From contig CAMCUA010000005.1 of the NCBI GenBank assembly GCA_945878455.1, forward strand, positions 1-34,361: a stretch of DNA of 34,361 nt, written 5' to 3'. Below, piece after piece: positions 646-30,804 of the stretch. This DNA comes from Asaia bogorensis (GTDB lineage Bacteria; Pseudomonadota; Alphaproteobacteria; Rhodospirillales; CAMCUA01). A model generated the notes under the pieces. It ran no database searches and was not told the DNA's origin. It was given only the letters and a program-made list of their open reading frames with translations. Positions within the stretch are counted from its first letter, which is position 1. Every line of letters starts with the position of its first letter. Both the position numbers and the translations under genes were made by a program.

Positions 646-1431
646 ATGGCGGAACTGGATAACAAGGTCGCCGTGATCACCGGCGGCTCGCGCGGTATCG
701 GTCTCGGCTGCGCCGAACGCCTGGCGGAGGAGGGGGCTGATCTGATGATTACCGCCACCAACAGCGGACGCCTGGCCGCCGCCGCGCAGCGCATTGCCGG
801 AACGACGGGCCGGCGGGTCGAATGGTGCGCCACCGATCTCAGAACCTTGGAGGGCTGCCAGGCCGTGGCGGCAAAGACACGGGCGGTCTATGGAGGCTGC
901 GACATCCTGGTCAACTGCGCCGGGGCCACGCAGAGCGGCCGCTTCCCGGACCAGCCGGACGAGGAATGGCTGGACGGCTTTGCCCTCAAATTCTTCGGTG
1001 CGGTGCGCCTCAGCCGATTGTTGTGGCCGGAAATCAAGAAGCGGCACGGCACGGTGATCAACATCGTTGGCGGTGCGTCGCGCACCCCGTCGGCCAACTT
1101 CATGGTCGGCGGCGCGGTCAATGCGGCGCTGTCGAATTTCTCCAAGGCCTTGGCCGACCAGGGGTTGAAGGACGACGTCAACGTCAACTGGATTCTGCCC
1201 GGCATGACGCAGACTGAGCGCTTGAACGAATTGCAGGCCAAGCGCGCCGAGCTGGCCGGCAAAAGCATCGAAGAGATTCGCCGCGAGACGCTTGTCGCCC
1301 AGGGGCTGCGCCGCATCGGCGAACCCGCCGATACCGCCCATCTGGTGGCCTTCCTGTGTTCGCCCCGCTCGCGCCACATCCATGGCGCCGGTATCGCCGT
1401 CGATGGCGGTGCCACAAAGGGGGTCTATTAG
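646..1431 (+). CDS. SDR-family protein with a non-canonical active site
   Basis: The protein has 261 residues, the usual size of a classical short-chain dehydrogenase. The Rossmann nucleotide motif GGSRGIGLG (13-21) and the NCAGA motif (90-94) are intact, and the end VDGGATKGVY is a normal SDR tail. The catalytic tetrad is not there. Aligned on spacing, Asn becomes Lys115, Ser becomes Gly142, Tyr becomes Gly155 and Lys becomes Asn159 within the segment FMVGGAVNAALSNFSKALA. The fold and cofactor binding may persist while ordinary hydride-transfer chemistry is doubtful. It lies 33 nt after glnS with an AAAGGA ribosome site. The TAG stop overlaps the edge of a palindromic element. The substrate cannot be inferred. 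Confidence 0.85.
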   Translation: MAELDNKVAVITGGSRGIGLGCAERLAEEGADLMITATNSGRLAAAAQRIAGTTGRRVEWCATDLRTLEGCQAVAAKTRAVYGGCDILVNCAGATQSGRFPDQPDEEWLDGFALKFFGAVRLSRLLWPEIKKRHGTVINIVGGASRTPSANFMVGGAVNAALSNFSKALADQGLKDDVNVNWILPGMTQTERLNELQAKRAELAGKSIEEIRRETLVAQGLRRIGEPADTAHLVAFLCSPRSRHIHGAGIAVDGGATKGVY

Positions 1432-28069: not shown

Positions 28070-28113
28070 ACGCCCTCGTCGGCGGCCTGCGGTGGCCCGG
28101 CGGGGGCGTTTTC
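28070..28113 (+). terminator. Probable intrinsic terminator of petABC
   Basis: ACGCCC (28070-28075) pairs with GGGCGT (28104-28109), with further G-C pairing between, and is followed by TTTTCGTT. It lies 41 nt after the petC stop and before the ribosome site of the next gene, as expected for operon end. Confidence 0.6.
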
Positions 28114-28151
28114 GTTCCGCCGCGCTGTCGCGCGTCGGGTGGAGAAGTCGG

Positions 28152-29291
28152 ATGATCATGGTCCAGGCCGCCAAAGTTCCGCGCGCCGGGGTTATCCTGC
28201 GCGATGCAACCCTCGCCGACGTCCCAGCGTTATTGGGTTTGGAAGAACGCTGCTTTGCGATCGACCGCCTGTCACGGCGCAGCTTTCAGCACCTGGTCGC
28301 GCACGGAAATGCCATCTGCCAGCTGGTTGAGCGCCAAGATGATATTCTCGGCTACGTGCTGGTGCTGTTCCGACAGGGCTTACCGATGGCCCGTATGTAT
28401 TCCCTGGCCGTCGATCCCGATGCGCAGGGGCAGGGGCTCGGGCGCATGCTCCTGGAAGCCGGAGAGGCGGCGGCCCGGGCACGTAACTGCGTTACCATGC
28501 GGCTTGAAGCGCATCTTCATAACGATGCCGCCATCGGCCTTTATGCGGCGGCAGGGTATCGGGAGTTCGGCATCTATCCGGACTATTACGAGGATCACGC
28601 CGATGCCAAACGGTTCGAGAAGCGGCTGATTACCGGTCCGGGTCCCGACCAGACGCGGGTTCCTTATTATGCGCAGACCCTGGAATTCACCTGCGGGGCG
28701 GCGGCGCTGATGATGGCGATGGGGGCGCTCGACCGGAATCTTCGTCTCGACCGCCGGTTGGAGTTGCGCCTGTGGCGCGAATCGACCACGGTCTACATGA
28801 CCAAGGGCCACGGCGGCTCCGGACCGCATGGCTTGGCCTTGGCCGCTTATCGGCGGGGCTTCGATGTTCGGGTTCATGTCAGCGACGAGACGGATTTGTT
28901 CATCGATTCCGTGCGCAGCGCGCATAAGAAAGAAGTCATCCGTCTGGTCGAAGAAGATTTCCTCGCCGAGATCGCCGAGACCGATATGGTGGTGCAGCGC
29001 GGAAGGTTGGGCATCGACGATCTCGCCGCCTCTTTCGCCCGGGGTGCCGTGCCGGTGGTGATGGTCAGTTCCTATCGCTTCGATCGCAAGAAAATGCCGC
29101 ACTGGGTGACGCTGGCCGACATCGATGACCAGTTTGTCTATGTGCACGATCCCTTCGTCGACGTGAAAGAACAGCAAAGTGCCACCGACTGTATGAGCAT
29201 GCCGATACCGCGTGCTGAATTCGCCCGGATGGTCCGTTATGGCCGGGCTCAGCTCCAGGCCAGCATCGTGCTGGGCCCGGGCCGGCACTGA
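28152..29291 (+). CDS. GNAT acetyltransferase fused to a C39-type cysteine peptidase
   Basis: The 379-residue protein begins at ATG after GGAG. Residues about 13-158 are a RimI-like GNAT domain: MYSLAVDPDAQGQGLGRMLL (82-101) forms the acetyl-CoA loop and HNDAAIGLYAAAGY (123-136) carries the family Asn and Tyr. From about 170, a papain-like C39 peptidase follows. The Gln175-x5-Cys181 pair in YYAQTLEFTCGAAAL, His317 (KMPHWVTL) and Asp333 (VHDPFV) give a full catalytic set. The acetylated group and cleaved peptide are unknown. It precedes a RimK-type ligase by 16 nt, a pairing I recall elsewhere in proteobacteria. A peptide-modifying pathway is inferred. There is no signal peptide. Confidence 0.88.
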   Translation: MIMVQAAKVPRAGVILRDATLADVPALLGLEERCFAIDRLSRRSFQHLVAHGNAICQLVERQDDILGYVLVLFRQGLPMARMYSLAVDPDAQGQGLGRMLLEAGEAAARARNCVTMRLEAHLHNDAAIGLYAAAGYREFGIYPDYYEDHADAKRFEKRLITGPGPDQTRVPYYAQTLEFTCGAAALMMAMGALDRNLRLDRRLELRLWRESTTVYMTKGHGGSGPHGLALAAYRRGFDVRVHVSDETDLFIDSVRSAHKKEVIRLVEEDFLAEIAETDMVVQRGRLGIDDLAASFARGAVPVVMVSSYRFDRKKMPHWVTLADIDDQFVYVHDPFVDVKEQQSATDCMSMPIPRAEFARMVRYGRAQLQASIVLGPGRH

Positions 29292-29307
29292 GCGGCCGGC
29301 CCCCGCC

Positions 29308-30804
29308 GTGCTGGTCGTCATTGTCGATCGTTGGACCAAGCAACGGCTGCTCGAAGCAGGATTTGCCGATCTGAACGTGCGCGTTGTGACCGCCAGGGAA
29401 TACGTTGGCTTTCCCCGGGCCTTTGGGCGTCGCGGCACGCGGATCATCAATCTCAGTCGCCGTTACGCCTATATGGACTACGGCTACTACTGCTCGCTGC
29501 TGGCAGAAGCCCGCGGCCATCGGGTGATACCCACCGTGACCGGCATTCTCACCTTGGGCAGTCGCGCCTTGTCTCGCCTTGCCCTGCCGGAACTGGACGC
29601 CGCTCTGCGGCGGCGCATCTCGCGCCTGTCCGAACCGCCGGAACCGATGTTCGACCTGTTCGTCGCCTTCGGACAGACGGACGATTCCCGGTTTCAGAAG
29701 TTGGCCCGTCATGCCTTTGACCGATTCCGCTGCCCCTTGTTGCTGCTGCGGATCGAAAATCGCGAAGACGGCTGGTGCGTGCGCTCCGTCCGGGCGCTGG
29801 CCAGCCGCGATCTCAACGAAGACCGCTTCGCCCTGTTCCAGCTGGCGCTCGAGCGCCACCTGCGCGTCGGCTTCGGCCGGCAGGCTGCACGCAGCGCGCC
29901 GCGTTACAGCATCGCCATGCTGCACAATCCGCGTGAAGCCTTTCCGCCGTCATCGCCGCGCGCCTTGCGCCGCTTCATTCGGGCCGGCATGTCGCTGGGT
30001 ATGGAAGTGGAGCTGATCGAACCGAAAGATCTGTTGCAGATCGCTGAATACGACGCCCTGTTCATCCGCGAAACCACTTCCATCGACGATCACACCTATC
30101 GGGTGGCGCGCCGGGCCGAATACGAAGGCATGGTAGTTCTCGACGATCCGGATTCGATCGTGCGCTGTACCAACAAGGTCTTCCTGGCCGAACTGCTGGC
30201 CGCCAACGGCGTACCTTCGCCGCGCACCGTGGTATTGGAGCCCGACCGCCTGGCCGCCGCGGAATCGGAATTAGGCTATCCGATGGTCTTGAAGGTGCCC
30301 GACGGATCGTTTTCGCGCGGCATCCACAAAGTTCAGAATCGTGAGGAACTGCGCCAGCGTGCCAGCGAACTGTTCAAGCGGTCGGATGTGATTCTGGCGC
30401 AGCAGTATGTCTATACCGACTACGATTGGCGGGTCGGCATCCTCAACGGCCGGCCGTTGTTCGTCTGCCAGTACTTCATGTCGCGCCATCACTGGCAGAT
30501 CATTCGTCACGGGGCCAGCGGACCGGCCCTCGGGCGCGCCCGCACCTTCTCGGTCGAAGAAGCGCCGAAGGCTGTGGTCGAAACGGCGTTGCGCGCCGCC
30601 CGCCTCATCGGCGACGGATTGTACGGCGTCGACCTCAAGGAGACTGCCGACGGAGTCGTCGTCATGGAGGTCAACGACAATCCGAATATCGACGCTGGCA
30701 TCGAGGATCAGGTGATGGGCGATGCCCTGTATCTGGCGATCATGGAAGAATTCGCCCGGCGGCTCGATCATCGCCGCCGCTCCCCCGGCTCGCCGCCGCT
30801 CTGA
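29308..30804 (+). CDS. RimK-type ATP-grasp ligase with N-terminal RLAN domain
   Basis: A 498-residue protein from GTG 29308 (MLVVIVDRWTKQRLLEAGFA), 16 nt after the GNAT/C39 gene. About 1-195 is the RLAN-type domain often fused to RimK-like ATP-grasp enzymes, including IINLSRRYAYMDYGYYCSLL. The ATP-grasp domain spans about 200-490: NKVFLAELLAANGVPSPRTV, YPMVLKVPDGSFSRGIHKVQ and DVILAQQYVYTDYDWRVGIL. Metal ligands fit Asp442 in YGVDLKET and Glu454/Asn456 in VVMEVNDNPNID. RimK relatives add amino acids by amide bonds to protein tails or small acceptors. The target here is unknown. A frame continuing upstream overlaps the previous gene and is rejected. Confidence 0.88.
   Translation: MLVVIVDRWTKQRLLEAGFADLNVRVVTAREYVGFPRAFGRRGTRIINLSRRYAYMDYGYYCSLLAEARGHRVIPTVTGILTLGSRALSRLALPELDAALRRRISRLSEPPEPMFDLFVAFGQTDDSRFQKLARHAFDRFRCPLLLLRIENREDGWCVRSVRALASRDLNEDRFALFQLALERHLRVGFGRQAARSAPRYSIAMLHNPREAFPPSSPRALRRFIRAGMSLGMEVELIEPKDLLQIAEYDALFIRETTSIDDHTYRVARRAEYEGMVVLDDPDSIVRCTNKVFLAELLAANGVPSPRTVVLEPDRLAAAESELGYPMVLKVPDGSFSRGIHKVQNREELRQRASELFKRSDVILAQQYVYTDYDWRVGILNGRPLFVCQYFMSRHHWQIIRHGASGPALGRARTFSVEEAPKAVVETALRAARLIGDGLYGVDLKETADGVVVMEVNDNPNIDAGIEDQVMGDALYLAIMEEFARRLDHRRRSPGSPPL

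Follow-up and report, generated by a model that had tools for sequence, protein, structure and literature searches.

The gene at positions 646 to 1,431 (+) of the window, the 34,361-nucleotide stretch of Asaia bogorensis DNA analysed here, encodes an SDR-fold protein in which the canonical N-S-Y-K catalytic tetrad is replaced by K-G-G-N, as established from translation, Pfam, alignment and an AF2 model. By analogy with its characterised relatives, the product (P0001) is probably an NADPH-dependent SDR-fold ene-reductase of the AerF/BacG (YwfH) kind. Its substrate would most likely be a conjugated acid, ketone or acyl-CoA, a class on which a catalytic Tyr would be unneeded.

The reading frame runs from an ATG at 646 to a stop codon ending at 1,431 and specifies 261 amino acids. 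The only Pfam models matching P0001 are SDR models, which span its full length (adh_short_C2, PF13561, 9e-41; adh_short, PF00106, 4e-40). The structure prediction proposed in the initial annotation, computed with AF2 from a 35-row alignment, gave a complete classical SDR fold (mean pLDDT 93.9, pTM 0.92) with TM scores of at least 0.9 to many SDR structures, and helix 153–176 occupies the YxxxK position. As that annotation had noted, the nucleotide-binding motif is intact: TGGSRGIG (residues 12–19; 679–702, +), a glycine motif of the TGxxxGxG type for NADP(H) binding, is accompanied by N90-C-A-G (913–924, +), the retained equivalent of the SDR NNAG motif. The cofactor suggested by these sequence features is NADPH, a preference inferred because R16 is present and an acidic residue is absent at the end of β2. 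Among NCBIfam models the top match is NF004779 (PRK06125), an SDR subfamily model to which no function is attached; P0001 scores 193.4 bits, under the curated cut-off of 261, and 33 of 35 clade members match the model at 1e-50 or better.

Alignments with canonical SDRs bear out the claim that all four active-site residues are replaced at canonical spacing. K115 (988–990, +) lies at the catalytic Asn position, G142 (1,069–1,071, +) at the Ser position, G155 (1,108–1,110, +) at the Tyr position, and N159 (1,120–1,122, +) at the Lys position, columns in which canonical SDRs carry N/H, S, Y, and K. The intervening spacings of 27, 13, and 4 are the same as in canonical N-S-Y-K, and the tetrad with its YxxxK is absent from P0001. 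Recruitment of a Tyr and Lys from another segment of the protein is ruled out, since the canonical spacing and the AF2 fold leave no room for it; the model being a complete classical SDR, there is no alternative Tyr/Lys for the site. Two further positions accompany the replacement. N164 (1,135–1,137, +), also found in AerF and YwfH, occurs in 85% of the clade and 0/10 canonical rows, and R192 (1,219–1,221, +), which sits in a T-x-R after the PG motif and is likewise present in AerF and YwfH, occurs in 82% and 1/10, respectively; judged from sequence, R192 may be a candidate substrate-binding residue. These percentages derive from a 40-row table selected by the K-G motif, in which counts for K115 and G142 are circular and carry no weight here, whereas the columns for N164, R192, and F112 are non-circular. 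Strict mutual exclusion between Lys at 115 and Lys at 159 is ruled out by another SDR of the window's genome (L119, G000:C51), which reads K-S-Y-K.

Conservation was evaluated in 36 distinct homologues (37–100% identity) picked by similarity with the motif ignored. The set covers Alphaproteobacteria, SAR324 (L039), and Myxococcota (L040, a deltaproteobacterial MAG assigned to that phylum), with the homologues from other phyla coming from a scan of genome contigs; the class-external phylum sample contained no homologue at 1e-45. K115 and G142 are present in 36/36, N159 in 35/36, and G155 in 31/36, and YxxxK was found in none of the 36. The homologue collection that the initial annotation had recommended confirms the stable subfamily that it had suggested, with GGxxNAAL plus K115 and G142 conserved across dozens of homologues; P0001 is most likely an uncharacterised relative of the AerF/BacG kind. 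No homologue above ~31% identity to P0001 carries N-S-Y-K, and SDRs at ~30–36% identity show other departures from it (K-S-T-R, K-N-T-R, N-S-S-R). Neither a Tyr/Lys pair from elsewhere in the catalytic positions nor a near homologue keeping YxxxK was encountered. Comparison with the same-genus orthologue (92% protein and 83% DNA identity) gives dN 0.046 and dS 0.91 by the Nei–Gojobori method; the ratio of 0.05 means that the gene is under strong purifying selection. This ratio and the conserved set of replacements rule out a pseudogene or drift, upholding the earlier argument that loss of all four residues goes beyond drift. The window's genome contains ~40 other SDR matches, ~20 of them canonical N-S-Y-K, and no second K-G-x-N SDR among them.

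The solved structure closest to P0001 is AerF of Microcystis aeruginosa, which is the top match with both a single sequence (141 bits) and a profile (254 bits). The fold search likewise places AerF first, as entry 6jhb, a complex with NADPH and 4-hydroxyphenylpyruvic acid (TM 0.92, ~36% identity). YwfH/BacG of Bacillus subtilis reaches 199 bits with the profile and also appears in the fold-match list, at 25% identity in the fold alignment. In the tetrad columns AerF reads K-G-S-N and YwfH K-G-N-N against K-G-G-N in P0001, so that K115, G142, N159, N164, and R192 are common to all three; sorbose reductase 3ai1, ranked between AerF and YwfH, is H-S-Y-K and keeps Ser, Tyr, and Lys. With Lys at the Asn position, Gly at Ser, Asn at Lys, and no Tyr, P0001 belongs to an AerF/BacG-type K-G-x-N set, defined by alignment in the present analysis and not by a published family definition. 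AerF and YwfH/BacG, the only two K-G-x-N proteins to have been characterised, both reduce C=C bonds with NADPH. AerF (PDB 6JH7, 6JHA, 6JHB), an enzyme of aeruginosin biosynthesis with an NADPH-bound crystal structure, differs from P0001 in its Ser at 155, its natural-product cluster, and its prephenate-derived substrate; no cluster of the AerF type was seen at the P0001 gene. YwfH/BacG (PDB 3U49, 3U4C, 3U4D) is the NADPH-dependent reductase of bacilysin biosynthesis, where BacG converts epoxy-3E-H2HPP to epoxy-4S-H4HPP (PMC9147277), and entry 3u4c is titled as an NADPH dependent reductase; unlike P0001 it carries Asn at 155, lies on a long branch, and serves a different pathway.

A tree built from the full alignment groups the K-G-x-N rows, AerF and YwfH among them, on a single branch (SH-aLRT 86). 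Once the four signature columns are taken out, a single clade with AerF and YwfH is not rejected (p-AU 0.54) but appears in only 33% of bootstraps, and the tree constrained to that single clade beats the free search by 0.6 log-likelihood units. These results are compatible with one origin of K-G-x-N in the P0001 clade, AerF, and YwfH, and parallel arrival at K-G-x-N would likewise point to the same chemistry.

A plausible reaction course can be outlined for P0001 as an ene-reductase. NADPH would be bound via the retained Rossmann motifs, the motifs and the fold themselves being observed. By extension from the two characterised relatives, hydride would be delivered to the β carbon of a C=C bond in conjugation with a carbonyl, the acceptor being an unsaturated acid, a ketone, an aldehyde, or an acyl-CoA; the YwfH structure paper reportedly describes such a conjugate hydride addition. 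Tyr would be dispensable because the carbonyl is not converted to an alcohol and requires no protonation. K115, on the helix that normally bears the catalytic Asn, probably positions the nicotinamide ribose and/or stabilises the enolate, R192 may hold the carboxylate or CoA, and the α carbon would then be protonated from solvent. Mentha isopiperitenone reductase offers a separate precedent among SDRs: with the catalytic Tyr replaced, reduction shifts from the ketone to the C=C bond (PMC4988501). It resembles P0001 in its altered catalytic Tyr and in reducing C=C rather than C=O (PMC4988501), but it is a plant salutaridine/menthone-reductase-like SDR with Glu at the Tyr position, and the parallel is a functional analogy only.

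The surroundings of the gene differ between this genus and its relatives. In the window, the 3′ part of glnS (glutamine--tRNA ligase; 1–612, +) ends 33 bp upstream of the SDR gene, and glnS likewise lies upstream within ~33 bp in the same-genus genome; in both, an EamA transporter gene follows downstream on the opposite strand. Just 3′ of the SDR stop codon is a strong hairpin (1,440–1,476, +; –35 kcal/mol, z –5.4), which is followed by no T run and received no intrinsic terminator call; it is a possible transcript end. The prephenate-decarboxylase and cupin-isomerase genes of the AerF and BacG pathways are absent among the immediate neighbours (glnS, EamA). In four relatives at 53–62% identity (L039, L040, L068, and L069, from SAR324, the Myxococcota MAG, and two alphaproteobacterial genomes), the SDR gene is flanked by a PanE/ApbA-family gene on one side and an acyl-CoA dehydrogenase gene on the other; a CoA-transferase and a Gfo/Idh oxidoreductase come next, with transporter genes nearby. 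Some of these loci continue with MaoC, enoyl-CoA hydratase, a second SDR, a TIM-barrel protein, and ABC transporter genes. The L068 operon includes a type II dehydroquinase, and its second SDR retains Y-x-x-x-K (PYGAAK); this operon therefore has both kinds of SDR. Among more distant clade members, some have a gene for a CoA-transferase of family III, a carboxyl transferase, or an acyl-CoA dehydrogenase next to the SDR gene, and others have unrelated neighbours. Taken by analogy, the relatives' operons hint that a small acid is catabolised as its CoA-thioester. Neither the window's genome (G000) nor the same-genus genome (G001) contains the operon CoA-transferase, so the operon evidence is indirect and context does not disclose the substrate here. 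A bolder proposal, which we advance tentatively, is that the K-G-G-N branch could constitute an as yet unassigned enzyme class reducing the C=C bond of a CoA-thioester or alicyclic acid, with a K115-type lysine replacing the tetrad. The class would operate within an undescribed catabolic operon of PanE-like protein, K-G-G-N SDR, acyl-CoA dehydrogenase, CoA-transferase, and Gfo/Idh oxidoreductase, sometimes with MaoC/enoyl-CoA hydratase.

Other activities were weighed against ene-reduction. P0001 might be a carbonyl reductase or alcohol dehydrogenase whose active site has been rebuilt, with K115 and ordered water taking over the acid–base work of Tyr and Lys. It is after all an SDR with every cofactor motif retained, and its K-S-T-R and N-S-S-R tree neighbours show the plasticity of the tetrad in this part of the family. 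However, the characterised proteins with the same residues act on C=C, and neither G142 nor G155 offers a hydroxyl for carbonyl polarisation, making this activity rather unlikely. The initial annotation had instead favoured a non-oxidoreductase role, such as a regulator, lyase, or hydratase, and this part of it is not supported: the cofactor motifs are kept, there is no extra domain, the nearest relatives lie in metabolic operons, and AerF and YwfH/BacG, with the same residues, are reductases. A non-redox NADP(H)-binding protein, acting as a redox sensor, scaffold, or pseudoenzyme, would account for the loss of four of four canonical catalytic residues and for a gene that in this genus is detached from its relatives' operon. 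Against it, P0001 is a single SDR domain with no DNA-binding, signalling, or other regulatory domain by Pfam or AF2, the replacement residues are conserved with active-site strictness, two same-residue proteins are enzymes, and the relatives' gene sits amid catabolic enzymes; a non-redox role is accordingly unlikely. A hydratase, lyase, or isomerase with structural or cyclic NADP is the least probable, for although SDR-fold lyases and epimerases exist (mostly extended SDRs) and the relatives' operons contain hydratase-type chemistry, those operons already carry separate MaoC and enoyl-CoA hydratase genes and no characterised K-G-x-N protein has such an activity.

Assignment of P0001 as a probable ene-reductase bears on how such sequences are annotated. 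Automatic annotation describes K-G-x-N SDRs as oxidoreductases only, although both K-G-x-N SDRs of known activity reduce C=C bonds. Used as a signature, K115-G142-x155-N159 would assign a testable reaction to many bacterial genes and would point toward flavin-independent ene-reductases. It also counsels caution against equating a missing YxxxK with a dead enzyme or a regulator.

Other SDRs lacking the catalytic Tyr occur in the window's genome. Four tandem genes (L132, G000:C11:9000-16000) encode K-S-T-R or K-N-T-R proteins, with Tyr to Thr and Lys to Arg at the YxxxK positions and Lys at the Asn position; they form a second Tyr-less SDR group, and tandem genes resembling them are present in the same-genus genome (G001:C9). 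Two adjoining N-S-S-R SDRs (L133, G000:C35:3000-7500) have Ser for Tyr and Arg for Lys. Their top NCBIfam models are PRK06125 and PRK08339, both under cut-off, and the N-S-S-R type recurs across many of the order's genomes. Three tandem SDRs (L113, L115, and L122, G000:C20:4200-6950) carry TGAVRRNG or a similar motif and read V-G-L-K or V-G-V-K in the tetrad columns, with Tyr lost and Lys kept. Elsewhere in the window, at 28,092–30,804 (+), a fusion of GNAT and DUF3335 (C39-peptidase-like) is followed by a gene whose RimK-like ATP-grasp product carries an RLAN domain, the ends of the two ORFs overlapping.
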